DNA of 43,837 nt, taken from contig JABWBV010000003.1 in assembly GCA_013359445.1 (NCBI GenBank), positions 1 through 43,837 on the forward strand, given 5' to 3'. Every line of letters begins with the position of its first letter. Position 1 is the first letter of the stretch. Of this stretch, positions 7,356-41,723 are shown one piece after another. Origin of the DNA: Anaerolineales bacterium. Lineage in GTDB: Bacteria > Chloroflexota > Anaerolineae > Anaerolineales > JABWBV01. Both the position numbers and the translations under genes were made by a program. The notes under the pieces were generated by a model, which saw only the letters and a list, made by a program, of their open reading frames with translations, made no database searches and had not been told where the DNA came from.

Positions 7356-7796
7356 TTTATTGCAATTAATTTAGGAATAATCCGGTCTTTGGTTGGGTGG
7401 GAGACGGACGAGAATCACGGCGTAAGCAACCAGCAAGCATAATAAGCGGTATGAATTTGTTGCAAAAGAAACTGAATACATACTATAACCCAAGAACATA
7501 TGAATTAGACACGCAAAATTAAGAAATTTCCCCAAATCAGGCGAAATTTCCTCGTCCGCCCAATGGAACTCAACCATTCATCCTGAAAGAAACCTCCGGC
7601 AAAGGCGAATTACGCCCCTGAGCCATCCCCCCGTTGGGCATGATATTTTGCGGACTCCAAACTCGATTGACACCCACTTGCCCCTCATGTAAACTCCCCT
7701 CATGGCAAATTCGCTTGGCATCCTCGCAAATCCCTGCTTCGAAATCTCGTGGACGAGGGCTATGTGCCGGTTTGGCAACCCCTCTCGGGTGAAACC
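7356..7796. other. Gap between divergent kinase and gluconokinase genes
   Basis: No supported gene lies here. Base composition shifts from AT-rich on the kinase side to GC-rich near the gluconokinase. The promoters of both divergent genes must lie here, but I see no convincing -35/-10 pair or palindrome. Weak frames on both strands lack family features. Confidence 0.5.
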
Positions 7797-14700: not shown

Positions 14701-17700
14701 GACCGTCTGATCCCGGAGCGACAGGTTGCAGTCCCCGTTCAGGCAGGAGGCCTCCAAATGCACCATCGCCAGCGCGAGCGATTCCAGTGCGTCCGACAGG
14801 CCGGGTTCGCCGAGGGTGCAGGCGTTGGCGGCGTGGTCTGAGGCGATGAAGATGGGTTCGGTGATGGAGCTGACGATTTGTGCCTCTACCACCGCGTATT
14901 GGGTGTAACTACCGGGCGCGGGGCTACCGAGGATGATCGGGAAACGGGAGCCGAGCGGGATGCCGGACGTGTTGAGGGTGGCGTTAAACGACTGGGTTTC
15001 GCCCACCGCCAGGGAGACGGGAGACGGAAGACCGGTGACGGAGGCGGTGATCGGTGGGAGGGAGGCGATGATCGGGAACGTGCCATCTGCGTTGCCGACG
15101 TTGGTCATTTCGAGGGTGAAGTCGGTGCTACTGTCGGAGCCGAGGTAGAGGGTTGAAGCCAGGGGATTGAGGTAGTTGAAGGGTTGGGAGGGCATCGTCC
15201 AGTTCACCGTTTCGCTTTCGGAGAGGGCGCCGCCATCGCTGACGGTGATCTCCATGCTGAAACTGGTTCCTGGCGCGGGCAGGGTGGGCGGGGACACGTA
15301 GAGGCCGACGGCGGTTCGTTCGGTTGCGGGGAGGGTCAGCGTGGTGCTGGCCTGGCGCGCCCCGTTCAGGATCAGCCATCCCGCGGGGGCACCGGTGACG
15401 GTCAGGGAGAGGGTTTTGGCGGAACCGGTCGCGTTGTAGAGGCCCACATTGAACGCGCTATCCGGGATTTCCGCTTCTGCATCGTTCGTTTGCCCCGAAA
15501 CGGTGGGGGCGACGCTGATTCCCACGGGGACGGTAATGCGCTCGTCGCTGGTCACGCCGAGCGTCAGCGCCTCGACCGCGACCACTTCTACTTCCTGCTG
15601 GGTCACGGCGAACACGTCGGGCTGGGTTTGCGCCTGGGCAACGATGTCCAACGTGTAGAGGCCCGGGGCGGTGTCCGGGTTCGGGGTGACGAGAACGGTA
15701 TTTTCATCGTCAAAAATCACATGCCAATCCGCCGGGGCCAGCACGCTGACCGTGATCTCATCGTCGAAATTGGCGGTGAGGGCCAGGTCAAAACTCATCG
15801 CGCCATAGGGCAGGACCCGATCTTCGGCGGTGTTTGTGGAAAGATTCAGGACCGGATCGCCGCTCCCGCCATTATCCGTCACCGAGACCGCTTGAATAGC
15901 AAGTGGGCTGGCATAAAACGGATTGAGGTGCCCAAACAGCATATCCGGTAAAGGAAGCGTGCCTGGGGCAAGGTCGTAATTGGCAAATTGTTCGATGCCA
16001 CAGTTTTCGATGGGGCAGAGGTGGGCCGGTAGAAAACGCCAGGCCGCGTCAAACAACCCGCCATGAATGGCGTCCGGTTGGCTGGGCGAGGCACTCGGCC
16101 CGGGCAGGGGCGGCATAGGGGGCCAGGGACTGGGAAGCGGGGAGGGCGGTCCGGGCAGGGGAAGCGGCGGGGTCGGGGGATTGCCACAACTACCCCCTCC
16201 CTGAATGGCTCCCACAACATTGCAAGCGATCCAATCCCAAAGTTGGCCGACCTCATAGGCTAATTTTCCAGGCTCATAAAAGGTCAGGAATAAATCCCAC
16301 ATTTCAAGAAAGCCATATTCTATGGCGGTCAAATGCAAACCATTTTCCATCACGCTGATTGTCTCGCCTGTGACGGGGTCCACTTCCCACCATCCCAGAA
16401 CGTCTTCCCCGTCAACTTCCACTGGGGCGGAGGGAATGACGATGGATTTGCCTTCCAGCAGGGCTTCGACCGCGTGGGCCGTGGCCTCGGAATCCAGACC
16501 ATAAACATCGAGCAATTGCATCGTGGCAGGTGTAACCAGCATGGGTTTGATGCCCTGTTCGGTCATGGCGTCAAACACGCGGGCGGTGGTCAGCGGCAAG
16601 ACGCCCGTTGCATCCTGCAAGACCTGTCCTTCCCGGTAAGATTCCAAAACTCCTTTGGTCCATTGGGCACTCAACGCGGCAGAAGTGGCCTGCCCAGGGT
16701 AGACGATGGCCTCCGCGCGCGTGCTTCGTAAGTCCAGCGTTTGAATGACCGTGGCATCCGCTTCGTTGTGTTGCGAGGCGTTGATGATCACCCGTGGTAA
16801 GGCGTAGTAGAGCTTTACGAACAGCGATTCCTCAATGCCCGCCAGGTCTTCATCGGCGGATTCGGCGAAATCGTAGGCCAGTTTGGAGAGAAAACGGGCA
16901 TACCCCAGTTGGATTTGAAGGAGCGCACGTTGGGTGGCCGCTTCCTCCTCGGGAGTGGGCGGATTGCCCTGGGAATCAATCACCTGCCCGGCTTGGGAGA
17001 GAATTTGTCCGTCCACGAGGGTGGTGGCCCGTTGGCGTGCGTACAGTGACTGATCCCGCACCACGTTCGGGAGGAAGGTCGCCACGAACACATCGGTAGG
17101 TTTCAGAAACGCACTGTTATCCTCGGGCAGGGTAATGCTCGCACCGCCCCCGTTCAGGCGGACATCCAGCCCTACCAGGTCTTTGAGGGTGCGGGTAAAC
17201 GTTTCGCTATGTCCGTCCGGGTCGGTGGTGGTCACGGTGAGCCACTCCGCCGTGGTGAAATGCGATGCAAAGGGGAAATTACTCAAAATGTCCTGGAACG
17301 GATCGCCCAGCGTTTGAAAATCTTCGCCGGTCAGGTCAAAAAACGGCGTGTAGGTATGGGTCACGGTGGTAAAAACAGCCCCCACAACTTCTGTGTTGAG
17401 ATAGTGCCCCACCGTGAGCGATTTGGCGGCGAGTTGGGCCATCGGGTAAGTGATTTCAATCGGCACGAACTCATTTAAAAATGTCCCGCCTATCGGAAAT
17501 TGATTGTATTGCTCGACTCGCAGGGTCACGGTGGCCTTGTGGCGAAGCGCGTCTGGCAATTCGGCAATCTGGTCGTTGGCACCCGGCGTGGCGAACACGT
17601 CCCCCGGTTGGGCGTTGGCGAACGATGGGTCGAGGTTCGTCCAGCCGGAACCGGGGAGGTACGCTTCCACCCACCAATGATCGGAAACGAGCGCGAGCAG

Positions 17701-18726
17701 GGCGGGGTCGTTGACCGGATCGCTAATCGGCGTCCCGGCGGGGAGCGTGCCCGCGACGCCGGTTTGCGCGACCGCTCCTTGAGCGGCGAACATGCTGGCG
17801 ATCAGCGTCTGGGCGTCGGCAGAATCCAGTGCCCCGTGCCGATACCGCGCAGGGATGCCCGCCGCGCGCAACATCGCGATCAGCAGGCTGGATTGGTCAA
17901 CCGAGTTTCCCGCTTCCCCCCACAGGGTGCCACGCGTGCCGCGCAACGAGCCTTTGTACGGGTCATAGCCCAAACCGCGTACAAATTCAAACATCGAGAG
18001 CGCATCTTGTCCGAGGGCGGCGGATTTCCAGAGCATATCGGCGTCGCGGGCGTTGGCGTCCACGGTGGGGAGGGTGAAGGCGGGGTCAATCCCGGTTGGG
18101 ATTAGCACAGCGGGCGGGGCAGTGGCGTTGACCGGTTCGCCCCATCGTGCGGCGGAGACCTGCGCGCCGGTGTCCAGATTGACAAAGCCGGTGCCCTGCG
18201 CGGGGGTTTGCAGGGACATCGTGAGGGTCGCGGAGGCTTGCGGGGGCAGATCGGGCAGGGTCCACGTCAGGGTGTTTCCAGCCTGTGCGGGGTTCCCGGA
18301 GGCGGCGAGGAGGGTGGTGCCGGGGGTGAGGGTGTCCGCGAGGGTGATCCCGCGCAAGGTGTTGACATCTTCGGAGAGGTCAAAGGCCGCGAGGATATTC
18401 ACCGTGTCGGTAATGGTGGCGGATACCGCCACGTCGGGCAGGCGGGTGGTGGGGAGGTTGTTGGTGAGGGTGAATTCGACAACCGTCTGCCCGGCGACGT
18501 AGGAGGTTTGGACGCGGGAAAGCGCAAGCGGCGATTGGGTTAATGGGGAATTTTGAATAGGGAATTGTGAATTAGGAATGGAGGAGGCGGGCGCGCTGGC
18601 GTAGGCGGGAGGGAGCGCGGCGGCGAGTTGGGAGAGGATGAAGAGGAGGACGATCAGGCGGTGGGCCAGTTGGCGATGAGAAGCGGGGGATGATTTCAAG
18701 TTGCACCTCAGGGATATGAATTTCAT
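8749..18726 (-). CDS. Giant secreted multidomain protein (3325 aa): transglutaminase-like, beta-propeller, NEW3-type repeats
   Basis: Starts with a signal peptide (RLIVLLFILSQLAAALPPAYA near residues 24-43). A transglutaminase-like domain lies around residues 215-360 (LLIAMLRAAGIPARYRHG, DHWWVEAYLPGSGWTNLDP); the usual catalytic Cys position holds Ser (GNSVDQSSLL). A proline-rich linker lies near 850-885. Many Ig-like stretches follow, then two tandem ~250-residue modules (about 1690-2215) sharing AEILVDGVSQG/AEVFIDGVSQG and YVDTWDGT/YVDVWDGT. An FG-GAP/VCBS beta-propeller lies at about 2220-2625 (GDVDGDGTVEIV, ADLDGQPGAEII). NEW3-like Ig modules fill about 2740-3300. The chain ends VEIYLPLVAKP. 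It is predicted to be at the cell surface. It lies downstream of a sigma/anti-sigma pair that may control it. Several in-frame repeats interrupt it. ATG at 18726 follows GAAGG. Confidence 0.93.
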   Translation of the reverse strand: MKFISLRCNLKSSPASHRQLAHRLIVLLFILSQLAAALPPAYASAPASSIPNSQFPIQNSPLTQSPLALSRVQTSYVAGQTVVEFTLTNNLPTTRLPDVAVSATITDTVNILAAFDLSEDVNTLRGITLADTLTPGTTLLAASGNPAQAGNTLTWTLPDLPPQASATLTMSLQTPAQGTGFVNLDTGAQVSAARWGEPVNATAPPAVLIPTGIDPAFTLPTVDANARDADMLWKSAALGQDALSMFEFVRGLGYDPYKGSLRGTRGTLWGEAGNSVDQSSLLIAMLRAAGIPARYRHGALDSADAQTLIASMFAAQGAVAQTGVAGTLPAGTPISDPVNDPALLALVSDHWWVEAYLPGSGWTNLDPSFANAQPGDVFATPGANDQIAELPDALRHKATVTLRVEQYNQFPIGGTFLNEFVPIEITYPMAQLAAKSLTVGHYLNTEVVGAVFTTVTHTYTPFFDLTGEDFQTLGDPFQDILSNFPFASHFTTAEWLTVTTTDPDGHSETFTRTLKDLVGLDVRLNGGGASITLPEDNSAFLKPTDVFVATFLPNVVRDQSLYARQRATTLVDGQILSQAGQVIDSQGNPPTPEEEAATQRALLQIQLGYARFLSKLAYDFAESADEDLAGIEESLFVKLYYALPRVIINASQHNEADATVIQTLDLRSTRAEAIVYPGQATSAALSAQWTKGVLESYREGQVLQDATGVLPLTTARVFDAMTEQGIKPMLVTPATMQLLDVYGLDSEATAHAVEALLEGKSIVIPSAPVEVDGEDVLGWWEVDPVTGETISVMENGLHLTAIEYGFLEMWDLFLTFYEPGKLAYEVGQLWDWIACNVVGAIQGGGSCGNPPTPPLPLPGPPSPLPSPWPPMPPLPGPSASPSQPDAIHGGLFDAAWRFLPAHLCPIENCGIEQFANYDLAPGTLPLPDMLFGHLNPFYASPLAIQAVSVTDNGGSGDPVLNLSTNTAEDRVLPYGAMSFDLALTANFDDEITVSVLAPADWHVIFDDENTVLVTPNPDTAPGLYTLDIVAQAQTQPDVFAVTQQEVEVVAVEALTLGVTSDERITVPVGISVAPTVSGQTNDAEAEIPDSAFNVGLYNATGSAKTLSLTVTGAPAGWLILNGARQASTTLTLPATERTAVGLYVSPPTLPAPGTSFSMEITVSDGGALSESETVNWTMPSQPFNYLNPLASTLYLGSDSSTDFTLEMTNVGNADGTFPIIASLPPITASVTGLPSPVSLAVGETQSFNATLNTSGIPLGSRFPIILGSPAPGSYTQYAVVEAQIVSSITEPIFIASDHAANACTLGEPGLSDALESLALAMVHLEASCLNGDCNLSLRDQTVSAAYSVALYAGVISPGLVQDDAVLTAADTLASHTDTADILADLQTLSDAVVGLDTEVCAWSESMPVLKWSPYYGAALVSEPTTYTLDLTNAGTLATTYALTVTLPSSVVSGQYSVNPGETSSFEFPVSSPSLGLFDLDAVAVVVGQDSILSNSNAVLNVVDKFVQLTAVTPDPPFVETGVSATDISISVANNANILQPATAHVEILHPTGGISYTAEVPVTILVGSPRNYALGTVDTSGWETGVYTITVELRNPSGALIPDGSGYGFLGVGQAVGISHAVEPGLVAPGAVTVTTVITTEILTPAIITDTMGAGNQEIGNGNQEVGNGNQNEPIPHSQFPIPNSISSTFPITRTEDTDPAITYAGTWTVVTVGGFHVRASHNDYTWADAAGETATMTFNGTWLHLGFVTGFTSGQAEILVDGVSQGVVDLYTQDPDVVSFVYDGFADTAHTLQIFVLGTHHPNSLGNRVQLDYVDTWDGTLYADGWVEQDSARVWHNNNWVTVTNANASGGTYMTDDGNNGGSAWFPFTGDSVTFVGLANWDGFRAGVYVDGVWKDNLWLYNTEAVTRTISFEGLGTGPHVMRITNYYGEPSVDAFVTPALEPGYVPPVETGIVRYEEDHPAFLYDGYPFETRKSSWDWETAIKPTSSEIGVARSSTLNDTITFTFEGRWVNLGFLSRSDGGTAEVFIDGVSQGTIGLYEASGDIPVEFQYGNLITGTHTLSITVLAQPDPPSVGSIVRFDYVDVWDGTPLPDDFVNVRKGTPVSRLHFNKSGEDIANNNAIDGDFFNAGLPNSWAGVWYHFTGTSFTLYGFTRNNTTNFDVFVDGEFLQNVSFHYPFSEQPFAVHFTGLEDGPHTVHVQNIWVMRLDGFASNQPDIPYQPVVEWWNNAPAGNGAPFFGTYGIAGGMAAGDVDGDGTVEIVVPADDNTYFGSLFLFRGDGGDTGDGDPIIWVKDLNEAVFRTWVSSPALADLDGQPGAEIIVAAGNQLFAFRGDGSTYWAVPTASIFETLSAPAVGNLDLDPEPEIVVNLGNTLEVRNHDGTLAWSTVYPAEVNPPVLADLTGDGLLDIVLTGWDDEVLVYDFNYGSPQLVWSVTLPTSMAGTFGAPAIADIDGLQPGGDPGPEVALASNGLLTVLNGEDGSLVWDTPLDPGNPGGVSIADLDGDGEVEIVTGMRYEFETGRFGMLYALNADGSLLWDAIAEDSSSANNASVLDLDGDGIYEVAWNGKEQGFTIFSGLNGSILFNEPLVNSFTGTDYPLIVDVDNDGQAEIVSAALGGVRVFGFGAAWGPARPLWNEHSYHITNINDDLTVPFSEPNSWESHNTYRTQTPFLNPMPSYAVALTHTVGLDDVTVLTNTFNIPPTTSNDPIYGWDYAVTWENTVVTQTFTSLLTNLQPGESRMVAQGTTADYVVSSGTNHLELPPLFVSVAHIVDVQPVTQTVGAGGSAVFDVVLTNPSGVSALYTLSVSGFPTGWATLSGAVPVPAGDSVTVPLTVDIPLDADTATLPFLVSVTTDQGAADQAGGALTVANLLELEIMPANQTVTTGEVATYTLSLTNADTVARTYTLSGSGLAPLTLPDEVTVSANSTAFVPFSAQAASEGANPFTLTATEENGTASGQATATVIGEGFQQVEVAILPATAPTGPGVLTPFDVRITNLGTVPDTYDLTASIPTGWEASLTLFGQPVETVTVAPGAGNALTLKLFLTPASDATPSDYPFTVTAQSQLLLLCSGDFNRSETQTTEVVTTCAALTSDTGAGVAQVGNLGVSVALSGPGQVSGSGVWDVTVTNNGAVADTYDLTAYGPFAQFAQLSPASVTLAPGASQTVQLTASGFDFLLATDYLLGVHAQSQTQSYVQDEDTLAVAISPAEGVVVAWQPASQTVSGSTVAVFTVVVSNTGNVQTIFTLTGSGSSGASVDLPLGSVIIPAHATATLLVVANAPGNGTYTLTVSADSGGAQGSDTATLVVEGVVPPVVEIYLPLVAKP
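9464..9515 (-). repeat. Double-palindrome dispersed element inside the giant gene
   Basis: GTAGTAACGACTTCAGTCGT ... GCGATTGAAATCGCCACTAC, the same element as in the gaps at 22340 and 27052. Here it is read as protein (GDFNRSETQTTEVVTT, near residues 3070-3090) without breaking the frame. Confidence 0.85.
13670..13770 (-). repeat. Short tandem repeat (GGGAAT/GGAATT type) inside the giant gene
   Basis: About 100 bases of degenerate units such as GGAATTGGGAATTGGGAATG and TTCCTGATTCCCATTTCC. It encodes the low-complexity stretch GNQEIGNGNQEVGNGNQ followed by HSQFPIPNS near residues 1652-1686. The same units occur at 18541-18582 and between genes at 20829-20872. Confidence 0.8.
14245..14271 (-). 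repeat. Perfect 27-bp palindrome inside the giant gene
   Basis: GTTGGACAGGATT, a one-base centre, then AATCCTGTCCAAC. It is read in frame as VVGQDSILSNS near residues 1485-1495. It looks like an inserted dispersed palindrome rather than part of the Ig-like domain. Confidence 0.65.
14356..14383 (-). repeat. Short tandem ACTGACC repeat inside the giant gene
   Basis: GACTGAATACTGACCACTGA followed by CCACTGAC. It is read as SVVSGQYSV. Such CAGTGGTCAGT strings are usually intergenic in genomes of this style. Confidence 0.55.
15012..15032 (-). repeat. Short GGAGACG tandem repeat inside the giant gene
   Basis: Three imperfect units of GGGAGAC/GGAAGAC. It is read as GLPSPVSL between two Ig-like modules. 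Confidence 0.4.
18541..18582 (-). repeat. Short tandem repeat just after the signal peptide of the giant gene
   Basis: Units of GGGAATT/GGAATTAGG type encode SIPNSQFPIQNSPL just downstream of the signal peptide. It belongs to the same repeat class as 13670-13770, whose product includes HSQFPIPNS. Confidence 0.65.
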
Positions 18727-18740
18727 AACAAACCTTCGCG

Positions 18741-18775
18741 CCAATCGAGGTTTTCGATAAGAAAACCTCGATTGG
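18741..18775. promoter_or_regulatory. 15-bp perfect hairpin in the leader of the giant gene
   Basis: CCAATCGAGGTTTTC and its exact complement enclose a 5-base loop. It ends 14 bases before the ATG at 18726, next to the ribosome site. No T-run follows on the minus strand, so it may slow translation or protect the processed mRNA rather than end transcription from the anti-sigma gene. The rest of 18727-18939 holds no supported gene. Confidence 0.6.
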
Positions 18776-30840: not shown

Positions 30841-32820
30841 TTAGTTTTTCGAAGATGTGGCCGGACTTTCGGCCATTACTTCGGGGATTTCTTTGTGGCG
30901 TTTTCTTGTTACGCCAATCTGGTAGGGGACATCGATGATGACAATATCCTGGTACACCTGCAAACGTGTCCGTAAAAAGTTCGCCGTTTGGTTGTGTAAG
31001 AGGTTTTCCATGAGGTTGTCGGAGACAAATTCCGGGATGACAACGGTGATGACCTGATCGGGGAATTCCACCGTATTTACCTTTTTGATGTAGTCTACCA
31101 ACGGGGTCAAGATATCCCGGTAGTCGTAAAAAATTGCCTCAAGTTTGATGCCTTCTGTAATTTCCGGGAAACGTTCCCAACGAATTTTGAACCGCTCTAA
31201 GGTGGCCTGGTCGGTTACGATGGTGACGGCCCGCACATCCGTCGAGAGCCGTTGGGCGTATCGTAAGGCTTGTAATGAACAGCGGTTGATGTCGCCAATG
31301 GGGATGATGACCGCTTCGGCAATCGGGGGGAAATCCTCTGAGGTCAGGTCTTTTGTTCGCAAGCCAAGTTTTACTTCTTGATAGTGGTGGTCAATCGAAT
31401 TGAACATATACACTAACAAGGGAATTGCCACGACGACGATCCATGCGCCTTCTGTAAATTTGGTCGCGATCAGGACGATCAAAACCATAAAAGTGACTAC
31501 GGCGCCAATTGCATTAACGGCACGCTTCCATCCGGTTCCAGTTTCATAGTGAATGCGGGTGTATTGGGTTTCCAGCACCTCCCCTGGTTTCAACTTGGAA
31601 ATTCTGCCCATTAGGCGGAACATCCCAGCCTGTGAGAGGCTGAAACTTAACATTACCCCTAAAGCGTAGAGGGGAAGCATGGCAATCTCATCCGCGTGAA
31701 AGATGATGACAATGATGGAAGACACGACGGCAAGCGTCATAATGCCACTGCCATAAACCAGCCGATCCCAGCGATTTTGCATCCAGCGCGGCATAAATCC
31801 ATCTTTCGACAAAAATGAACTCAGCCTGGGAAAATCTTGAAAACCGGTATTAGCGGCCAAAAACAGAATCAGGGCGGTAAAAATTTGCACCCAATAATAA
31901 AGGAAACCAGTCCCGGTGATCTGGCGGGTCATTTGGGACAAAATACTCTCCCCGTGGGAGGCCTCAGGGATTAGCCCCAAGTGTGTGGAAAGATAGGTAA
32001 TGCCGATGAACAAGGCCATTGCCATTACCCCCATCGCGACCATCGTTTGGGCGGCATTTTTTGACTCCGGGGCCTGGAACGCTTTCGTCCCATTGCTGAT
32101 TGCTTCGATCCCGGTCAAGGCTGTACACCCTCCGGCAAACGCCCTCAACAACACCCAAAGGTAAGCAAACCCCGAAAGGGCCGCACCTTCCACCATCTCA
32201 TGCGTTTCCGGGACAATGGGCGTCAAACCAAACCAGCCCCAATAACGTACCAGCCCGATCCCAATCACCAACAAAACGCCCCCCACAAACGCATAAGTTG
32301 GTACAGCGAAGATCGTCCCACTTTCTCGGACCCCTCTTAAGTTGACCCAGGTGATTAATAGAATGGCCGCCAAGGCCATCCAGACGCGGTATTCGACCAG
32401 CTCCGGGAAAGCCGACGTGACCGCACGTACCCCAGCCGCGGAAGACACGGACACGGTCAACACGTAATCTGTCAATAATGCTCCCGCGGCGATGAGTGAC
32501 GGGATTTTTCCCAGATTATCCTTTGTAACCGTATAGGCCCCACCGCCGTCTGGATAATGGATGATCGTTTGAATGTAGCTAAAAATCACCATCAAGACCA
32601 GGGCGGCGACTCCCAACCCAAGTGGTAAGGTCATACTTAAAGCCCCGGTTCCCAAAACAAGGAGCACACTCATAATGGCCTCGGTCGCGTACGCATTACT
32701 GCTGATGGGGTCCGACGCAAAGACAGCCAATGCACGCACTTTATCCAGACGCTCATGCGCCTCGCGGCTGGTGGGGAAAGGTTCACCGAATAAAAAACGA
32801 CGAATTGTTGGGATAGCCAT
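30841..32820 (-). CDS. kimA: KimA-type APC-superfamily potassium transporter
   Basis: Polytopic inner-membrane protein of 659 residues with about 12 spans and a cytosolic C-terminal domain from about 480. It resembles KimA (formerly YdaO), a high-affinity K+/H+ symporter. Matching features are RRFLFGEPF at the start, ALAVFASDPISSNAYATEAI near 30-50, IIHYPDGGGAYTVTKDNLGK near 85-104, then LLTDYVLTVSVSSAAGVRAV and TWVNLRGVRESGTIFAVP. The C-terminal part (VIIPIGDINRCSLQALRYAQ, VIPEFVSDNLMENLLHNQTA) is the regulatory domain. The DNA is more AT-rich than the Kdp genes upstream. Neighbouring KdpD/KdpE-type genes support a potassium role. Generic amino-acid permease is the alternative call. Confidence 0.85.
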   Translation of the reverse strand: MAIPTIRRFLFGEPFPTSREAHERLDKVRALAVFASDPISSNAYATEAIMSVLLVLGTGALSMTLPLGLGVAALVLMVIFSYIQTIIHYPDGGGAYTVTKDNLGKIPSLIAAGALLTDYVLTVSVSSAAGVRAVTSAFPELVEYRVWMALAAILLITWVNLRGVRESGTIFAVPTYAFVGGVLLVIGIGLVRYWGWFGLTPIVPETHEMVEGAALSGFAYLWVLLRAFAGGCTALTGIEAISNGTKAFQAPESKNAAQTMVAMGVMAMALFIGITYLSTHLGLIPEASHGESILSQMTRQITGTGFLYYWVQIFTALILFLAANTGFQDFPRLSSFLSKDGFMPRWMQNRWDRLVYGSGIMTLAVVSSIIVIIFHADEIAMLPLYALGVMLSFSLSQAGMFRLMGRISKLKPGEVLETQYTRIHYETGTGWKRAVNAIGAVVTFMVLIVLIATKFTEGAWIVVVAIPLLVYMFNSIDHHYQEVKLGLRTKDLTSEDFPPIAEAVIIPIGDINRCSLQALRYAQRLSTDVRAVTIVTDQATLERFKIRWERFPEITEGIKLEAIFYDYRDILTPLVDYIKKVNTVEFPDQVITVVIPEFVSDNLMENLLHNQTANFLRTRLQVYQDIVIIDVPYQIGVTRKRHKEIPEVMAESPATSSKN

Positions 32821-33090
32821 AGATGATTGTTCCTGGGAGAAATGTTGAAAGGTTTATCGCCCGCGTATTTTTTGGGCGTTTCGGATGGCGGTAATCGGCC
32901 CATGTTTTGGCTTACTTTGGCCTAATGGTATGGGCACACCTCCGCGCAACCACCCCACCCTGACCTACGCTGGGTGAGGCTAATTACACACCATTTTACT
33001 TTTGGTGAAAAGGACACGTTTGGGTACAAGACCCAAGAAATGTACCACTCGCATATAAAGAAATCATAAAAAAAGATGCCATGTGCATAA
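32821..33090 (-). promoter_or_regulatory. Structured leader upstream of the KimA-type gene
   Basis: The 317-base gap has no gene but four hairpins on the transcribed strand: 33020-33036 (TTGGGT/ACCCAA), 32953-32979 (CCTCACCC/GGGTGGGG with a G-U pair), 32898-32935 (GCCCAT/ATGGGC) and 32858-32878 (CGCCC/GGGCG). The last is close to the ribosome site. Potassium transporters of this family are often under riboswitch control, but I could not match the c-di-AMP (ydaO) core here. Confidence 0.45.
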
Positions 33091-33128
33091 AGAAAAAATA
33101 AAAACGCCCTGGGGGAAAGGCCCGGACG
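33090..33128 (-). terminator. Rho-independent-type terminator after the KdpE-like gene
   Basis: On the minus strand, CGTCCGGGCC ... CCAGGGCG forms an imperfect stem followed by TTTTTATTTTTTC, 9 bases past the stop at 33138. It closes the kdp-type operon. Confidence 0.7.
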
Positions 33129-33137
33129 TGGTTTGGC

Positions 33138-33836
33138 TCATTCGTCAGGGGAAAATCGATACCCAATTCCGGGTTCGCTGAGTAAATAGCGGGGGTGTTT
33201 CGAGTCAGCCTCCAATTTTTTGCGGAGCTGGCTCATATATACGCGTAGATATTCTACGTTGCTTTCGTATCCCCCGCCCCAAACTTTCATTAAAATATTT
33301 TGATGTGTGAGCACCCGCCCCATATTTTTGACCAGGTAGGTGAGCAGACGAAATTCTGTCGCGGTGAGTTTAACCTCAGTCCCTTTTCGTGTCACAAGAT
33401 GCGCGCCAAGGTCAATCACCAAATCTCCAGCCGTGACGATCACTTCTTTTGTGGCTTCCACAGACTGGGCGGAGTGGCGTAAGGCCACGCGGATCCGTGC
33501 AAGTAGTTCTTCGATGCCGAAGGGCTTAACCAGATAGTCGTCTGCGCCCTGATCGAGCGCGCGCACTTTGTCGCGTTCATCTTCCCGCACGGAGAGGACG
33601 ATGATCGGGATTTGCGTCCACTCCCGCAGGCGACGGCAAACTGTGAACCCGTCCACGTCGGGCAGACCAAGATCGAGAATAACCAGATCTGGGAGCGTGG
33701 TGGCGGCCAGGGTCAGGCCTTCTTCGCCGCGCCCGGTGGCGGTCACGCGGAAATGTTTGGCCAGCAGGATCGTGCGGAGGGCGCGGAGAATTTGCGGTTC
33801 GTCGTCAATGACCAGGATGTGCGGTTGGGGCGTCAT
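33138..33836 (-). CDS. KdpE-like OmpR-family response regulator (copy 1)
   Basis: DNA-binding regulator of 232 residues. The receiver has D11-D12, phosphoacceptor D55 in LVILDLGLPDVDG, IVLSVREDERDKVRALDQGA and the Lys in YLVKPF. The OmpR-type winged helix starts near 130 (VKLTATEFRLLTYLVKNMGR, VWGGGYESNVEYLRVYMSQL, EPGIGYRF). LDLGLPD.DG and SVRE followed by ALDQGADDYL are KdpE-like. It overlaps the kinase at 33833 by ATGA, so the two are made together. It is the last gene of the potassium operon before the terminator at 33090. Confidence 0.9.
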   Translation of the reverse strand: MTPQPHILVIDDEPQILRALRTILLAKHFRVTATGRGEEGLTLAATTLPDLVILDLGLPDVDGFTVCRRLREWTQIPIIVLSVREDERDKVRALDQGADDYLVKPFGIEELLARIRVALRHSAQSVEATKEVIVTAGDLVIDLGAHLVTRKGTEVKLTATEFRLLTYLVKNMGRVLTHQNILMKVWGGGYESNVEYLRVYMSQLRKKLEADSKHPRYLLSEPGIGYRFSPDE

Positions 33837-35287
33837 AGGATTTCACTCTCCAGGGCAGGGGGGGGATGTCCGTTCCAGGCCAGGGGGAGGGTAAAACAAA
33901 ATGCGAACCCACCCGGCAGGTTTTCCGCCCAGATATTTCCGCCGTGTGCTTCCACAATCCCCTTGCAGATTGACAGCCCCAGCCCCGTGCCTGTGACCCG
34001 GTCTGCATTTGTCACGCGATGAAATTTATCGAAAATACGCGGCAGATGCTCGGCAGGGACAGGTGGCCCCTGATTGGTCACGCGCACGGACAAGTTTTGG
34101 GGAATTTCGGCGCGCGCCAGAATTTGAATGTCCGTGTGTGCGGGCGCGTATTTGATGCTGTTGCTGATCAGGTTGGTGAAGACCCGTTGAAGTTGATAAT
34201 AGTCTACCGGCACGAGGGGCAGGTTGTCCGGCACGTCAACCAGCAGACGATGTGCTTCCAGCCCTCGCCGCATTCGCCCTGCCGCCGACTCTACGATTTC
34301 GGCCAAAACATTCCAGTTGCGGTCGGGTTTCAGCGCCCCCGCTTCAAGGCGGGACATATCCAGCAGGTTGCCGACGAGTTGGTTCAGTTGATCGGTCTCT
34401 TCGTCCACCACGGCAAGCAGTTCTTCTCGCACAGCGGCGTCATCCCAACTCACTTCGCTACTGAGTAAACTGGTGATGGAGGCTTTGATGGTGGCTAATG
34501 GCGTGCGGAGTTCGTGCGAAACCGATGAAAGCAGGGCAGATTTCATCCGGTCGCTTTCTTCCAGCACTTGGGCGCGGGTTTCGGCTTGCAAAAGGGTGGC
34601 CCGTTCCATCGCCAAGGCGGTTTGAGTCACAAACGTTTGAAGCATTTGTTTTTCGGAAACGTTGAGCGGAGTTTCTCGCCACAGATGAAATTCCCCTAAC
34701 AGGCGGTGTGCGGCTGAAATCGGCTGGATGATATCTGGGACACCGGAGGGCGCGGTCTGATCCGTGGGGGTCGCCACCGAGATCGGGGCCTCCGCGGGGG
34801 TGGAAAGGTTCGCGCGCACGAACCTGGCCCGAAACGTTTCCTGCGCCTGGCTCACCAACACATGCGCGATTTCCGGCAGATCGTTCACCCCCACAAGCCG
34901 CACACTCAATTCATATAACCGGGTTGTTTCCAATTCTCTGGCCTGCGCGGCTTCTAAATTTTTCCGGGCGCGGCCCACCAATTGACTCGTCAATACGACA
35001 ACCAGAAAAAAAATAGCCAACCCAATCAAATCCTGCGTATGGAGAACATCAAAAGTATAGTACGGGCGCGTAAAAAAGTAGTTTAGCGCTAGAAATGCCG
35101 AAAACCCCGAAACCAACCCAGGGCTTAGCCCCCAAAGGGTTGTGCTCACCAAAACCGGGATCAGATAAACCAACGCAATGGTAGAAGTGCTTAAAAAATC
35201 CCGTATAAAAAATAGAATGGCAGTGGTAAGGAGAGTTATCACCACTGCCAGAATAAGCTTTAGGGAAGGAGATAAAACGGCTTTCAC
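33833..35287 (-). CDS. KdpD-like sensor histidine kinase lacking the N-terminal KdpD domain
   Basis: A 484-residue membrane kinase equivalent to the C-terminal half of KdpD. Three to four closely spaced spans (LKLILAVVITLLTTAILFFI, ALVYLIPVLVSTTLWGLSPG, LIGLAIFFLVVVLTSQLVG) form a DUF4118 sensor. A GAF-like segment follows, then HisKA with SSVSHELRTPLATIKASITS near residue 257 and HATPase with NLISNSIKYAP and GTGLGLSICKGIVEAHGG. The Walker-type KdpD and USP domains are absent. The start is uncertain: GTG at 35287 gives VKAVLSPS, while GTG at 35320 adds 11 residues. It pairs with 33138-33836 and duplicates the full KdpD/KdpE pair upstream in the same operon. Confidence 0.88.
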   Translation of the reverse strand: MKAVLSPSLKLILAVVITLLTTAILFFIRDFLSTSTIALVYLIPVLVSTTLWGLSPGLVSGFSAFLALNYFFTRPYYTFDVLHTQDLIGLAIFFLVVVLTSQLVGRARKNLEAAQARELETTRLYELSVRLVGVNDLPEIAHVLVSQAQETFRARFVRANLSTPAEAPISVATPTDQTAPSGVPDIIQPISAAHRLLGEFHLWRETPLNVSEKQMLQTFVTQTALAMERATLLQAETRAQVLEESDRMKSALLSSVSHELRTPLATIKASITSLLSSEVSWDDAAVREELLAVVDEETDQLNQLVGNLLDMSRLEAGALKPDRNWNVLAEIVESAAGRMRRGLEAHRLLVDVPDNLPLVPVDYYQLQRVFTNLISNSIKYAPAHTDIQILARAEIPQNLSVRVTNQGPPVPAEHLPRIFDKFHRVTNADRVTGTGLGLSICKGIVEAHGGNIWAENLPGGFAFCFTLPLAWNGHPPPALESEIL

Positions 35288-35341
35288 ATGATAAGTGTAC
35301 CATGCCGCGGGAAGAGACACTCGGTCCCATTGCCCGTCGTT

Positions 35342-36049
35342 TCACTCCACCTTAAACCGATACCCCACCCCCGGCTCCGTCAAAATAAAACTGGGCCGCG
35401 CGGCGTCCGGCTCGATCTTCCGGCGCAAATTGCTGATATTCACCCTCAGCATGTGGTATTCACTTTCGTACCCCGTGCCCCACACCTGCCGCAACAACTG
35501 CTGATGCGTCAACACCTTACCCGCGTGCGTGATCAGCACCCGCAGCAGGTCATATTCCGTCGGGGTCAGTTTGACTTCCACGCCACTCACTTTCACCAAA
35601 CGGTGCGTAAAATCCACGGCCAGCGCCCCTTCCGTAAAGGTCGTTGTGGTCTCCGGGCGGACGGCACGGCGCAGAGCGGCCCGGATGCGCGCCATCAGTT
35701 CCCCCGCGTGGAACGGTTTGGTCAGGTAATCGTCCGCGCCCGCGTCCAGCGCGGCGATTTTGTCCGTCTCCTGTTCCCGCACGGACAGGATAATGATCGG
35801 GATTTCCGTCCACTCCCGCAGGCGGCGCGTGACTTCGATGCCGTCCATGTCCGGCAAACCCAGATCGAGAATCACCAGATCAGGCCGGTGCTGGACGACG
35901 GCGGCGAGCGCTTCCTGCCCGTTGGCGGCCTCGTGTACGGTGTGGCCGTGGGCGGTTAATGCGGTGGATAGAAAACGACGAATCGCCCGCTCATCATCCA
36001 CGATGACGATCACGATACCGGCGGAAACAGAACTTCCGTGGTCGGTCAT
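35342..36049 (-). CDS. kdpE: KdpE-like OmpR-family response regulator (copy 2)
   Basis: A 235-residue regulator with receiver D18-D19, phosphoacceptor D62 in LVILDLGLPDMDG, IILSVREQETDKIAALDAGA and DDYLTKPF. A winged-helix output follows (VKLTPTEYDLLRVLITHAGK, LLRQVWGTGYESEYHMLRVN, EPGVGYRFKVE). It is closer to classical KdpE than copy 1 and overlaps the stop of full-length KdpD by ATGA. KdpE activates kdp transport genes under K+ limitation or osmotic stress. Here only kdpC is nearby. Confidence 0.92.
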   Translation of the reverse strand: MTDHGSSVSAGIVIVIVDDERAIRRFLSTALTAHGHTVHEAANGQEALAAVVQHRPDLVILDLGLPDMDGIEVTRRLREWTEIPIIILSVREQETDKIAALDAGADDYLTKPFHAGELMARIRAALRRAVRPETTTTFTEGALAVDFTHRLVKVSGVEVKLTPTEYDLLRVLITHAGKVLTHQQLLRQVWGTGYESEYHMLRVNISNLRRKIEPDAARPSFILTEPGVGYRFKVE

Positions 36050-38742
36050 GGGACGTTCTCCATTTTCGGGGTCGAAAGGGGGAGGGCGAAGGTGAACAGG
36101 GCACCACCCCCCGCGCGGTTCTGCGCCCAGATCCGCCCCCCATGCGCCTCCACAATCCCCTTGCTGATGGACAACCCCAGGCCGGTTCCCCCCACCCCGC
36201 CGGCGCCCGCTCCGCCCGCCGATTGCCGTACCCGGTAGAACTTGTCAAAAATTCGTTCCTGTTCCGCCTCTGGGATGCCGTTTCCCCGGTCGGCAATTTC
36301 CACCAACACCTCGCGCGCGTACACCATCGCCCGGACCAGAATCGGCTTGTCGGGCGGGGAATATTTGTCGGCATTATCCAATAAATTGACGATCACCTGC
36401 ACCACGAGCACAAAATCCATCGGCACCAGAGGCATGTCGCTTGGCAAACTGAGTTTCACTTCCCGGTGGCGCAGACGAGGCCCCAATTGGGAGAGCGCGA
36501 CCCCTATCGCATCCTGCAAATCCCCCGGCTTGAGGGCGATGCGGAGCGCCCCCGATTCCAGCCGGGTCATGTCCAGCAGATTGCCGACGAGCCGGTTCAA
36601 GCGGTCGGCTTCTTCGGCGGCAGTGGCGAGCAAATCCTGGCGGGCGGGTTCGTCCAACAGGGGCGCCTCCTCGCGCAGGGCGCTGAGCGCGCCCGTGATC
36701 GAAGCGAGAGGGGTGCGAAGGTCGTGGGAGATGGAGTTGAGGAGGGCGGTTTGAAGTTTTTCCGTTTCCTGCAACAGTTGGGCGTGGCGCGCTTTTTCGG
36801 CAAACTGCACCCGCTCAATCGCGAGCGCGGTCTGACTGGCGAAAGATTCGAGCAGGCGGCTTTGTTCGGGCAGAATGGGCAGACGGTTTTCGGGAAACAC
36901 GCCCAGCACCCCGATCCCCTCCTGGCTTTGCAGGGGCAGGTACAAGCCCTCCGCCCCGGTCAGGGTATCGGTGCCGTGCCCGGCGGGTTGGCCCTTCTCG
37001 TAGGCCCAGGTTGCCACGGCTTTTTCGTGGTCGGTCAGCGTCAGCCCGTTGCTCATCGCGAGCGGACGGATGTCCTCATGTTCGTGGATAAACAGCACCA
37101 CCCGTGCCCCCACCAGTTTTTCCGCGTGCGTAACAACGGCTTCCCCGATGTTGATCAGGTCAGCGGCGGTGGCGAGGGCGCGGCTAAGTTCGTATTGTGC
37201 GGCGGTTTGCGCTTCCCGACGTTGGGCGGTGCGGGCTTGCTCGCGGACGCGCGAGGCCAGGTTGCCCGTCACAAATCCGGTGCCCAGAAAAGCGATAAAC
37301 GTCAAAATGTATTCGGCATCGGAAACGGCAAAAAGATAATAGGGGGGAATGAAGATGAGATCGAAAGCAATCACCCCTAACAGGGACGCCAGGATCGCCG
37401 GAGACCGCCCCCACCACACGGCGGCCATCACCACCGCGATGAGATAGAGCATGACCAGGTTGGTGGGTTCGATGACCCCGCGCAAAGGCAGACCGATCAG
37501 GGTGACGGCAAGGATCAGCAGGGTGCTTTGTAACCACCGTTTCCAACGGTGTTGGAGCATGGGCGAGGGTAGGGTAAATTCGACTTTTCCCTCATCCCCT
37601 GGCTCGGCACTGATTACGTACACATCAATGTGCCCGCTGTGGTGAATGATCTGGTCCACAATCGAACGCCGCATCATCGCCGCCCATCCGGTGTGAATAG
37701 GTTTCCCCGCGACAATTTTGGTGATGTTGTTGGCGTGGGCGTAGGTGAGGATCGCTTCGGTGACGGAATTGCCGGGCAGGGTGAGACTCTTGGCCCCCAA
37801 CTCATCCGCCAGGCGCAAAGCGCGGGTGATCCGATCGTGATCGGCGTCGGACAGTTGGGTTTGATCGGGGAGTTCGACGTAGACGGCGAACCATTCCGCG
37901 TTGAGCCGGTTCGCCAGCCGCCGCGCGGTGCGGACGAGCCGTTCACTGAGCGGGTTGGGGCCAATGCACACGAGCAGACGTTCCCCCGCAGGCCAGGGTC
38001 CGGCGATGGCGTGGGTTTGCATGTACGCCCGCATTTGTGCGTCCACCCGGTCGGCGGTGCGGCGGAGGGCCATCTCGCGGAGGGCGGTGAGATTGCCGGG
38101 GCGGAAAAATTTGCGGGTCGCCCGCGCGGCTTGATCGGGCACGTACACTTTGCCTTCGTCCAACCGTTGGCGGAGTTCGGCGGGGGGGAGGTCAATCAAC
38201 TCGATCTCGTCCGCCTCGTCCAGCACCCAATCGGGCACCGTTTCCCGCACGATGATCCCCGTGATTTGTGCGACGACATCGTTCAAACTTTCGAGATGTT
38301 GAATGTTGAGCGTGGTGTGAACGCCAATCCCCGCCTCTAGCAGTTCTTGAATATCCTGGTAGCGTTTGTCGTGGCGGCAACCGGGGGCGTTGGTGTGGGC
38401 GAGTTCGTCCACGAGGGCGATGTGCGGCTGGCGGGCGAGGACCGCGTCCAAATCCATTTCGGGAATGGACACGCCCCGATATTCAATGGACTGCCGGGGG
38501 ATGATTTCCAGGCCCTTGAGCATTTCTTCCGTTTCCGCGCGTTTGTGCGTTTCGACATATGCCGCGACAACATCCGCCCCTTCCGCGCGGAGTTGTTGCG
38601 CCGCTTCCAGCATGGCAAACGTTTTCCCGACGCCTGCGGCGTATCCGAGGAAGATTTTGAATTTCCCGCGTTTTTGCCGCGTTTCTTCGCGCTGGACGTG
38701 TTCGAGGAGTTGATCGGGGTTGGGGCGGGTGGAGGGGGGCAT
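36046..38742 (-). CDS. kdpD: Full-length KdpD osmosensitive K+ sensor histidine kinase
   Basis: An 898-residue sensor kinase with the whole KdpD layout. The N-terminal KdpD domain has Walker A GYAAGVGKTFAML near residue 33 and Walker B ALVDELAHTNAPGCRHDKRY near 110. The USP domain is near 240-360 (LLVCIGPNPLSERLVRTARR, KIVAGKPIHTGW). The DUF4118 spans are near 390-500, a GAF domain near 510-640, HisKA SISHDLRTPLASITGALSAL near 670, and HATPase NLLDNADKYSPPDKPI and GTGLGLSISKGIVEAHGG near the end. ATG at 38742 is preferred, but a TTG at 38766 would add eight residues. Translation is coupled to kdpE (ATGA). It controls K+ uptake genes. Confidence 0.95.
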   Translation of the reverse strand: MPPSTRPNPDQLLEHVQREETRQKRGKFKIFLGYAAGVGKTFAMLEAAQQLRAEGADVVAAYVETHKRAETEEMLKGLEIIPRQSIEYRGVSIPEMDLDAVLARQPHIALVDELAHTNAPGCRHDKRYQDIQELLEAGIGVHTTLNIQHLESLNDVVAQITGIIVRETVPDWVLDEADEIELIDLPPAELRQRLDEGKVYVPDQAARATRKFFRPGNLTALREMALRRTADRVDAQMRAYMQTHAIAGPWPAGERLLVCIGPNPLSERLVRTARRLANRLNAEWFAVYVELPDQTQLSDADHDRITRALRLADELGAKSLTLPGNSVTEAILTYAHANNITKIVAGKPIHTGWAAMMRRSIVDQIIHHSGHIDVYVISAEPGDEGKVEFTLPSPMLQHRWKRWLQSTLLILAVTLIGLPLRGVIEPTNLVMLYLIAVVMAAVWWGRSPAILASLLGVIAFDLIFIPPYYLFAVSDAEYILTFIAFLGTGFVTGNLASRVREQARTAQRREAQTAAQYELSRALATAADLINIGEAVVTHAEKLVGARVVLFIHEHEDIRPLAMSNGLTLTDHEKAVATWAYEKGQPAGHGTDTLTGAEGLYLPLQSQEGIGVLGVFPENRLPILPEQSRLLESFASQTALAIERVQFAEKARHAQLLQETEKLQTALLNSISHDLRTPLASITGALSALREEAPLLDEPARQDLLATAAEEADRLNRLVGNLLDMTRLESGALRIALKPGDLQDAIGVALSQLGPRLRHREVKLSLPSDMPLVPMDFVLVVQVIVNLLDNADKYSPPDKPILVRAMVYAREVLVEIADRGNGIPEAEQERIFDKFYRVRQSAGGAGAGGVGGTGLGLSISKGIVEAHGGRIWAQNRAGGGALFTFALPLSTPKMENVP

Positions 38743-38793: not shown

Positions 38794-39510
38794 TTAGACG
38801 AACTCAAGGGCACGCTTTTGCCACATCTCGACATTCACGCCCTTAATCAACAGCCACAAAGGGAACAGTAATTCGCCTATGAATGTAAATTGGCTAACCG
38901 TGATTTCAAGGTTGGGGAAAAAGAATGGGGCAAAGAAATCAATGAGGTAGCCAAAGCATCCAATCATCAGCAGAATCCCCAGAAATTTTGGCAGAAAACC
39001 TGACTTGAAAACTAGATAGCCCATAGGGAACAGCCAAAAACCCCAAAAGATACTGGCGATGCTCACCCCATAATCGTGCATGTCTAAAAAGAAGACTACT
39101 AGCGCCTGCAACTGTGCCGTGTTGAAAACGGCTAGATGGTCAGTACCGTTCAGTAGCGCTAGAACGGCAAACTGATTAATTTCGCTCAACATGGCAATAG
39201 GTGCGGCGAGGAAAATAAATATCACCATTAGTGAAGCCATGTACTTATTAACGGATTTCAGAAGCTGGTATAGGGTCAGCACCACAGAAATGTTGACAAT
39301 CTGGATGAGGAGAGCAGTCAGAATGCTAAGGCGATAGACCGATATGGAGTTAGCGATGTTCGTCGCGGTTGCTGTGGCATCTCCCGGTACAACAAATGCA
39401 ATAGGAACGTACAGTAGTCCAAAAATACCAAGTGGCAAGAGAAGTAAATAAAGGAACCCTGCAAGCCTGGCTGTTCTCTGGATAGATTTCGTATCTTCTT
39501 TGGTTGTCAT
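38794..39510 (-). CDS. DUF4386-type integral membrane protein
   Basis: A 238-residue protein with about six membrane spans (GFLYLLLLPLGIFGLLYVPI, LSILTALLIQIVNISVVLTL, YMASLMVIFIFLAAPIAML, GVSIASIFWGFWLFPMGYLV, LGILLMIGCFGYLIDFFAPF). The start TARLAGFLYLLLL and the SSxxLPKFLG-like KSGFLPKFLGILLMIG match DUF4386 proteins, whose function is unknown. Its codons are clearly more AT-rich than those of kdpC and kdpD on either side, which suggests a later insertion into the kdp operon. A Shine-Dalgarno AGAAAGGA precedes the ATG at 39510. Confidence 0.78.
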   Translation of the reverse strand: MTTKEDTKSIQRTARLAGFLYLLLLPLGIFGLLYVPIAFVVPGDATATATNIANSISVYRLSILTALLIQIVNISVVLTLYQLLKSVNKYMASLMVIFIFLAAPIAMLSEINQFAVLALLNGTDHLAVFNTAQLQALVVFFLDMHDYGVSIASIFWGFWLFPMGYLVFKSGFLPKFLGILLMIGCFGYLIDFFAPFFFPNLEITVSQFTFIGELLFPLWLLIKGVNVEMWQKRALEFV

Positions 39511-39575: not shown

Positions 39576-40208
39576 TTATTTTACTGAGCTTTGGGAATAG
39601 TCTACGTCAATATATTCTGTAAGTTGCAAATCCAATGCCATATTCAATCGCAACACATTGACCCGCGCCTCGCCGAAAAACCCGAACTGTCTGCCTTCGG
39701 TGAATTCATCTACGAGCTGACGAACCTGCTCTTCCGTGATGCCTCGCGCGCGCGCAACGCGGGCCACCTGGTACAACGCGGCGGCAACGCTGATGTGCGG
39801 GTCCAGCCCACTCGCGGAGGCGGTGACCAGATCAACGGGGATGGGCAGGGTGTTGTCCGGGTCGGCGGCTTTGAGGGCATCTATGCGCGCTTGCACCCTA
39901 TCGGTCAACGCGGGATTCAACGGGCCGTAGTTGGAGCCGGAGGAGGCGGTCAGATGTTCGGCATTGAAGGCGTTGTAGGCAACCGTGCCCGTCGCGGATA
40001 GCCGCCCCCAAAAGTATTTCGGATCATCAAAGGACTGGCCGATCAGTTCCGACCCCACCGGTTGCCTGTCTTGCACGATCAGACTCCCGTTGGCTTGATG
40101 GGGGAAGATGACCTGGGCAACGGCGGTGACCGTCAGGGGGTAGATCACGCCGGTGACGAAGGTGAGGAGACATAAGATGATGAGGGCGGGTTTGAATTGA
40201 GAGAACAT
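39576..40208 (-). CDS. kdpC: KdpC, K+-transporting ATPase C subunit (orphan)
   Basis: Single-span accessory subunit that stabilises the KdpFABC potassium pump. The 210-residue product begins with the membrane segment [20 protein letters not shown] near 6-25. Next are the family stretches [20 protein letters not shown] near 65, [13 protein letters not shown] near 100, [20 protein letters not shown] near 140, and [20 protein letters not shown] near 170. ATG at 40208 places the membrane segment directly at the N-terminus, as in the family. It should follow kdpA and kdpB, but neither is present. A palindromic repeat (40234-40313) and an unrelated small gene lie upstream instead. Confidence 0.95.
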
Positions 40209-40325: not shown

Positions 40326-40649
40326 CTAACGCCGTTTGGCTTTCAGCATTTTTAGATAATGAATCTGTTGTGGATTGAGATTCTGGCGCTCAAATTGGGC
40401 TTGTTCGGCTTCGCGTTGTTTATGTTCGACGAGTTCTTGTTGTTCCCGTTCTTCTTCCTGTTCTAATGCAATGGCGTTTGCCGTCACCCAACGCCAGATC
40501 AACCAGTATCCAAACACGACAATCCCGATTTGAGAGGCGGTGCGGACTGTGGTCGTGAGGACCATTCTCTGCGCCAGGAATAGTGCAGTGATCATGCCAA
40601 TGAACAATCCATTTACGAGCCACCAGGAGGGTTTACGCTTCTTTTGCAT
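40326..40649 (-). CDS. Small two-span membrane protein with coiled-coil tail (107 aa)
   Basis: Begins MQKKRKPSWWLVNGLFIGMI, with a basic start and two hydrophobic segments (VNGLFIGMITALFLAQRMVL and SQIGIVVFGYWLIWRWV). A highly charged helix follows (ALEQEEEREQQELVEHKQRE, AEQAQFERQNL), likely a coiled-coil on the cytosolic side. No known domain is recognised. Its start overlaps the end of the KdpD-like sensor (40633) by 17 bases, so the two are translationally coupled and may interact. It lies just upstream of the gap where kdpAB would be expected. Confidence 0.75.
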   Translation of the reverse strand: MQKKRKPSWWLVNGLFIGMITALFLAQRMVLTTTVRTASQIGIVVFGYWLIWRWVTANAIALEQEEEREQQELVEHKQREAEQAQFERQNLNPQQIHYLKMLKAKRR

Positions 40650-41382
40650 GTTCCACCTCCACCAACCGGGTCCGCTCCAACGCTTGTGCGGCTTGCGAGG
40701 CAAGGTTTTGGAGCAAACGACTTTCGACGGGGGGAAGTTCACCATCCCCGCGCCACATCTGGATTTCACCAACCATGCCCCAGGCGTTCCAAATCGGCAA
40801 GATACGATCCGGGCGGCGAACGTTGGGCAAGGTGTCATCCCCGTTATGAGGTTCGGTCACGGTGACGCTGGGTGCTTGATCGGTTGCTTGAACTACCACT
40901 TTGACCCGCGAGTCAAAATACCGTTGTTGCAATTGCCGGGCGAGCGTATAAGCGACGGCGGACTGGGTTCGCATTCCAGCGAGGGCCGCGCTCAGTTCGT
41001 ACATAAACAGCGCGTCTCGTTCACTGGCCTGGGCGCGGGATAACCCGGTCTGAATCCGCCCGATCACCACGATGGAAACCGTCAAAAAGATGATCAGGAC
41101 CAGCCAACTTTCCAGGCTTCCCACTGCAAACGTAAAAAATGGCGGGATAAAAAGAAAATCAAACGCCAGCGCGGCGGTCACCGCGGCAGACATCCCCGGT
41201 CCCTGCCCCCATTGGCTGGTGCTATATCCAACCGGAACGAGCAAAAGCAGGGCAATGACCGCTTCCCCCAACATATCCCGCCCGATCAGGAACAGGATGG
41301 CAGTGGTTACGGCAACGGTCAAGATCGCTTTGCCGGTTTTTTCGAACATTTCAAAGGTGAAAGAGAGTTTGGGTATTTTCAT
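40633..41382 (-). CDS. KdpD-like membrane sensor without kinase domain
   Basis: A 249-residue protein with the DUF4118 membrane part of KdpD (KAILTVAVTTAILFLIGRDM, AVIALLLLVPVGYSTSQWGQ, AALAFDFLFIPPFFTFAVGS, LVLIIFLTVSIVVIGRIQTG) and a GAF-like region ending SRLLQNLASQAAQALERTRL. The chain stops there (VEVEHAKEA) exactly where HisKA would begin. It aligns well with the first half of 33833-35287, so it looks like a kinase-less paralogue. ATG at 41382 is preferred over a frame opening at 41439. A four-site operator array lies 53-100 bases upstream. It might modulate the KdpD kinases or the pump. Confidence 0.8.
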   Translation of the reverse strand: MKIPKLSFTFEMFEKTGKAILTVAVTTAILFLIGRDMLGEAVIALLLLVPVGYSTSQWGQGPGMSAAVTAALAFDFLFIPPFFTFAVGSLESWLVLIIFLTVSIVVIGRIQTGLSRAQASERDALFMYELSAALAGMRTQSAVAYTLARQLQQRYFDSRVKVVVQATDQAPSVTVTEPHNGDDTLPNVRRPDRILPIWNAWGMVGEIQMWRGDGELPPVESRLLQNLASQAAQALERTRLVEVEHAKEA

Positions 41383-41434
41383 AGGGTGTGAAAGGTGATG
41401 TGTTTGATTTCCCACTGATCGTATCGGAGAGGGG

Positions 41435-41482
41435 GTCAATTTTGGGTCAAGAGGGGAGAATGGGGTGTCAAGAAAGTGTCAA
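41435..41482. promoter_or_regulatory. Four (T/G)GTCAA half-sites with 11-21-11 spacing
   Basis: GTCAA occurs at 41435, 41446, 41467 and 41478. The spacing is one, two and one helical turns, all in the same orientation. TGTCAAGAAAGTGTCAAG looks like the 11-base direct repeats bound by OmpR/PhoB/KdpE-type regulators. On the transcribed minus strand the sites read TTGAC and could also contain the -35 element. Confidence 0.6.
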
Positions 41483-41559
41483 GATACGAATAGGCGATAG
41501 GTTTTCAGGTATATTCTGAACAGATGAGGTGTCCGAGTGCATCTTGATAGATGAATCAA

Positions 41560-41601
41560 AAAAGGCTGGGGAGGGAATATCCATTCCCTCCCCAGCCTTT
41601 T
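41560..41601. terminator. Perfect 19-bp terminator hairpin
   Basis: AAAAGGCTGGGGAGGGAAT and its exact complement around a 4-base ATCC loop, with A and T runs at the ends. It ends the beta-helix gene on the minus strand. The remainder of 41383-41723 has no supported gene. Confidence 0.92.
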
Positions 41602-41723
41602 GTTTTGAAAATTGGGTCTGCCAGATTTATTGCGGGAGAAATCGAAATTTTGAAGGGGGCGGGAGATGTACCGCCATACCCCTTAAATGAACTGCTTCGG
41701 GCTTGGTTGTCCAGGCTTCCGAC

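Follow-up and report, generated by a model that had tools for sequence, protein, structure and literature searches.

A four-site TTGAC array resembling the Escherichia coli KdpE box upstream of Kdp-type genes in an Anaerolineales bacterium

PhoB recognizes the pho box, which is built from direct repeats of TGTCA, and at its own promoters this box replaces the -35 element and lies 10–11 bases upstream of the -10 element. The core of the sigma-70 -35 box is TTGAC. For KdpE of Escherichia coli, the accessible part of PMC3264566 (where TGTCA is also given as the pho box word) describes a footprint at -72 to -50 of the kdpFABC promoter, with half-sites TTTATA and TTTACA arranged as TTTATA-N5-TTTACA. 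Double changes in TTTA abolish KdpE binding and single ones only weaken it. This is the only KdpE site described for E. coli in that part of the paper, and it corresponds to the distal pair of half-sites discussed below. For Mycobacterium smegmatis KdpE, the accessible part of PMC5401905 reports a 22 bp A-rich motif in the kdpF promoter that, according to its authors, does not clearly resemble other KdpE motifs.

The array studied here lies in a 43 837-nucleotide stretch of contig JABWBV010000003.1 from an Anaerolineales bacterium (the window). Direct reading of the sequence confirms the four identical half-sites with 11-, 21- and 11-base steps that were noticed in a first-pass annotation: GTCAA starts at 41435, 41446, 41467 and 41478. 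As every gene of the cluster is on the minus strand, we take the working reading to be TTGAC repeated four times on that strand and running towards the operon. The distal pair then consists of S1 (41478–41482) and S2 (41467–41471, at +11), and the proximal pair of S3 (41446–41450, at +32) and S4 (41435–41439, at +43). A -10-like word, TACGAT, follows at +59 (41418–41423, minus strand), and the promoter so outlined predicts a transcription start near 41411 on the minus strand. Allowing up to three mismatches, the 48-base pattern is found at a single place in the window and in none of 100 dinucleotide shuffles. The 7.04 Mb genome holds 18 copies of the single pair GTCAAN6GTCAA and eight of the reversed control; it is thus the four-site array that is special and not the pair, which was dropped as a genome-wide marker for being too common. 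A GC-rich hairpin between an A run and a T run was identified by eye at 41555–41603 and is absent from the listing of the computed scan. It is likely to be a bidirectional terminator shielding the promoter from the gene on the right.

Compared with the mapped E. coli KdpE box, which is found upstream of kdpFABC as TTTATACTTTTTTTACACCCC, the distal pair is identical at 17 of 21 bases without gaps, with S1 aligned to TTTATA and S2 to TTTACA. A second copy of the array, upstream of kdpF in the same genome (see below), reaches 18 of 21, and none of 5000 resampled E. coli upstream regions (first-order resamplings, not exact shuffles) attains either score. The step of 11 bases is shared, as is the distance to a -10-like word, which stands at +59 in the window, in the kdpF copy and in E. 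coli (TACCCT). Both the kdpF copy and the array of the kdpC/kdpD row lie upstream of kdp genes, with the box some 70 bases ahead of the predicted transcription start. Two TT.A[CT] half-sites with an 11-base step, as in the E. coli-type operator, are present in the window, but the third base is G (TTGA) instead of T. The other difference is the perfect second pair at +32 and +43, which is degenerate in E. coli, where TTTGC occupies both places. This E. coli pair scores 8/10, the best of 53 offsets, yet 10 of 296 upstream positions reach the same score, and as a counterpart of the proximal pair it is suggestive only. The match to the mapped box supports the earlier proposal of an OmpR-family regulator and points to the KdpE type. 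The pho box resembles the array in its direct repeats, its 11-base step and the placement of the proximal pair about ten bases upstream of the -10 word, but it differs in its word and its genes, and the window has two pairs 32 bases apart. The M. smegmatis site is likewise located in the kdpF promoter, but its A-rich sequence is unrelated to the array.

The genes that follow the array encode, in order, a DUF4118 protein, a 109-residue protein, KdpC, a DUF4386 protein, KdpD, a response regulator (RR1), a DUF4118 kinase, a second response regulator (RR2) and a KimA-like permease, all on the minus strand. The array had been described as upstream of a KdpD-like sensor. The neighbouring gene is in fact that of the 249-residue DUF4118 membrane protein (40633–41382, ATG at 41382), which has no kinase domains, while KdpD itself (36046–38742; KdpD sensor, Usp, DUF4118, GAF, HisKA and HATPase domains) lies farther down on the same strand. 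The 109-residue frame that separates kdpC from the DUF4118 gene (40326–40655) has no family match. KdpC (39576–40208) is the only KdpC found in the genome; KdpA and KdpB are absent among the genes of the window cluster. The DUF4386 membrane protein (38794–39510) sits between kdpC and kdpD. RR1 (35342–36049) is encoded by the sixth gene of this closely packed same-strand row and is followed by the DUF4118 sensor histidine kinase (33833–35320), whose adjacency to RR2 (33138–33836) suggests a partnership. The last gene encodes an APC permease (30841–32820) with an AA_permease_2 match, which we take to be KimA-like from its resemblance; NCBIfam gave no match for it. Elsewhere in the window, a frame of 3331 residues at 8749–18744 with transglutaminase-like, FG-GAP and Ig-like domains is probably a large surface protein.

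Next, conservation was assessed in 396 genomes of the same class. A gene-blind search with the fixed pattern returned 76 matches in 56 genomes and none for the reversed control. When the central gap was left free between 4 and 30 bases in 74 genomes, 14 of which had been picked by the fixed-gap search, 22 of the 24 exact matches kept a gap of 16, the other two having 17 and 14; in the 60 genomes chosen through KdpA the gap was 16 in 16 of 17 matches. KdpA was matched in 62 genomes, in 61 of them above the family cut-off. A strict distal pair is present in 45 of 62 usable kdpA upstream regions (44 non-redundant) and missing at this threshold from the other 17. With the half-site score, which was designed after the window had been seen, and with only the distal pair as anchor, a second pair with both words at 4/5 or better is found at +32 in 31 of the 44 promoters and in at most four at any other offset between 17 and 65. 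The class consensus is TTGAc-N2-TTTC-TTGAc-N16-TTGaC-CCC-N3-TTGAc-N11-TAxAxT; drawn from the 44 relatives, it puts TAxAxT at +59 to +64, and S3 is frequently TTGTC. The spacing, on which the first-pass annotation had staked its reading, is therefore kept in relatives. Genome G037 carries two arrays in tandem, 365 bases apart, upstream of a single KdpE-like regulator gene.

The same geometry is seen outside the class. Of 80 named kdpA loci, the five belonging to Chloroflexota were excluded; among the others, 73 had a usable upstream region, an uneven sample rich in Betaproteobacteria. At a looser threshold, 42 of these could be anchored (39 non-redundant), against 4.2 anchors of 77 for shuffled upstream regions. 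Both proximal words lie at +32 in 17 of the 39, and no other offset occurs more than twice. Since 48 of the 73 lack a distal pair at the strict threshold, as do 17 of the 62 in the class, the array is common but not universal.

A search upstream of kdpA or kimA elsewhere had been suggested, and the array was found before kdpA and before kimA-like genes. In 34 of the 76 class matches the downstream gene is kdpA. For part of the 42 other matches, 30 proteins were collected as the longest frame within about 2.5 kb, which is not always the first, and 27 of them are either transporters of cations or other ions, or signalling proteins of the Kdp type. Pfam assigns 15 to AA_permease_2, three to Na_Ca_ex, three to OmpR-type regulators, two to KdpD, two to DUF4118 kinases, one to P-type ATPases and one to CLC channels with TrkA_C; the remaining three look unrelated. 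By eye, a KimA-like stretch is common to several of the permeases. That regulators and kinases occur among the targets, with arrays directly upstream of KdpE-like genes, supports autoregulation in relatives.

The only KdpA match of the genome is on another contig, C143, where the order is kdpF-kdpA-kdpB-regulator without kdpC (kdpF and kdpB were named by eye). The kdpF promoter has identical 11-21-11 steps, its first word being TTGAT, the same TACGAT at +59 and, in the proximal part, 34 consecutive bases identical to those of the window promoter. With a common array before both loci, the split kdp operon (kdpFAB on C143, kdpC in the window) appears to be tied together by the promoter that its two parts share. 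As the genome comes from a bin with 6.58% contamination, C143 could in principle be foreign, but its nearly equal G+C content and the common promoter argue against this. On the same contig a TTTAT array (7564–7611 of the fetched piece) follows the kdpB-linked regulator gene and precedes two frames without a Pfam match and a cation P-type ATPase. A set of words on contig C9 (731–779 of the fetched piece) at first looked like an 11-22-11 array. Inspection by eye showed five TTGA(C/T) words that follow one another every 11 bases without a break, ahead of a further gene for an OmpR-family regulator, and it was set aside because this continuous spacing marks a different kind of operator.

The four-site geometry, scanned through the window at 18/20 or better, recurs in one place besides the TTGAC array: TTTAT is repeated four times with 11-21-11 steps at 33055–33102 on the minus strand, between RR2 and the KimA-like gene and 8 kb from the first array. 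In the class, 17 of 396 genomes contain the TTTAT pattern, with 18 matches in total (two for the control), 17 of these matches within 440 bases after the recognition-helix codons of a regulator with an EYLRV-type helix. When ten pieces were fetched for such a regulator, the TTTAT array was beside it in eight; genome G010 and contig C172 of the window's own genome lack it. The recognition helices are HMLRVNISNLRRKI in RR1, EYLRVYMSQLRKKL in RR2 and HYLRIYMGHLRQKL in E. coli KdpE, and Arg193 and Arg200 of the KdpE helix are invariant in a seven-sequence alignment. RR1, RR2 and the C143 regulator score best with KdpE among all listed families, but RR1 and RR2 reach 250.5 and 249.3 bits, below the cut-off of 325 bits for the KdpE equivalog NF007820, and all three are for this reason called KdpE-like. 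The nearest solved structure to RR2 by sequence is KdpE (PDB entry 4KNY). In all probability the cluster contains a pair of KdpE-like paralogues, each served by an operator word of its own.

Helix and base were also compared between genomes for 58 classified kdp promoters, after 21 had been dropped (weak anchor, no helix or ambiguity). T is the third base of both distal words in 15 of 19 promoters with YM helices versus one of 24 with N helices, and ten of 12 YF helices go with G in both. TTGA is nevertheless present in at least one distal word in four of the 19 genomes with a YM helix. A helix-to-base code drawn from these between-genome data alone was rejected because lineage confounds them, TTTA with YM occurring almost only in other phyla. 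RR1 is our candidate for TTGAC because its helix class goes with TTGA promoters, while that of RR2 goes with TTTAT arrays. Both KdpE-like proteins had been put forward as regulators of the TTGAC array; RR1 stands, whereas RR2 has its own TTTAT array adjoining, which probably leaves RR1 as the sole cognate regulator.

It could be argued that only the distal pair serves as the KdpE operator and that the proximal pair belongs to the core promoter, its overlapping -35-like words being maintained by RNA polymerase and not by a second dimer. The identity of TTGAC with the -35 core, the single site described for E. coli and the frequent TTGTC at S3 would fit. However, the proximal words are about 21 and 10 bases from the -10 word, outside the 16–18 bases of a tandem sigma-70 -35 arrangement, and a sigma-70 scan listed no promoter at the array. 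In addition, the 32-base offset is fixed and the proximal words change along with the distal ones between the TTGAC and TTTAT arrays, and we consider this explanation unlikely. A PhoB-like phosphate regulator acting on TGTCA words of the plus strand is very improbable: GTGTCAAGAAAGTGTCAA resembles a pho box by eye, but the plus strand showed no gene ahead of the hairpin on the right, the gene-strand reading fits the KdpE box, and across genomes the array stands before genes for the transport of potassium and other ions. A chance cluster of short repeats would be in line with single pairs that are merely about twice as frequent as the control, and it is refuted for practical purposes by the four-site array, which has no match in the shuffles, and by the conserved fixed spacing.

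The assignment of one operator word to each regulator has a competitor of its own, namely that either RR1 or RR2 reads both arrays and that TTGAC and TTTAT differ only in affinity. The words are indeed alike, single changes weaken but do not abolish binding of E. coli KdpE (accessible part of PMC3264566), and both the TTGA words in four of the 19 YM-helix genomes and the two of ten pieces without a TTTAT array are as expected for such an arrangement. Set against this are the EYLRV-type regulator genes adjoining 17 of 18 TTTAT arrays and a third base that tracks the helix class (15/19 versus 1/24), the latter confounded by lineage. We regard a single reader as doubtful, although it retains an appreciable chance of being right.

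The reading that we prefer is that the TTGAC array is very probably a conserved strip on which KdpE-type regulators dock to activate genes for potassium uptake. The 11-base steps and the offset of 32 bases, or three turns, place the four half-sites on one face of the helix, where two KdpE-like dimers could stack head to tail. The distal dimer would sit on S1–S2, at about -71 to -55, where E. coli KdpE binds. The proximal dimer would occupy S3–S4, at about -39 to -24, covering the -35 place 10–11 bases upstream of the -10 word; as the proximal words lack -35 spacing, it probably replaces the -35 contact. Under K+ limitation a phosphorylated regulator, most likely RR1, would recruit RNA polymerase and switch on the DUF4118-kdpC-kdpD-kdpE row, presumably co-transcribed, together with the kdpFAB operon elsewhere in the genome. 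RR1 lies inside the row that it would drive, which implies positive autoregulation, as first proposed from the gene arrangement and as the arrays upstream of KdpE-like genes in relatives also suggest; as the pump genes and the sensor-regulator row alike have an array in front of them, a positive loop may result. RR2 would read the separate TTTAT array before kimA. Judged from sequence comparison, we are confident in this explanation as a whole: a minus-facing KdpE-type operator for two dimers, with RR1 driving the row and kdpFAB and RR2 acting at TTTAT.

A broader proposal seems to us evenly poised. KdpE promoters in general may be two-dimer promoters (words at 0, 11, 32 and 43, -10 at +59) of which the 23 bp E. 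coli site is the upstream half; a duplication in this lineage may have produced two insulated circuits that retained the geometry while half-site word (TTGAC or TTTAT) and recognition helix changed in concert, and the shared array may co-regulate the split kdp genes. The distal site was already known, and neither the fixed proximal pair at the -35 place nor the two operator words were found in the open-licence literature searched, so these would be the new part. A single repeat would thereby lead to a rule that can be tested on the KdpE promoters of different phyla. The array may also serve as a genome-wide marker for potassium and other ion-transport genes, the array alone having led to the KimA-like, Na/Ca exchanger and CLC genes. 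A cluster that pairs two paralogous regulators with different operator words may help in learning how the helix of OmpR-family proteins chooses its DNA.
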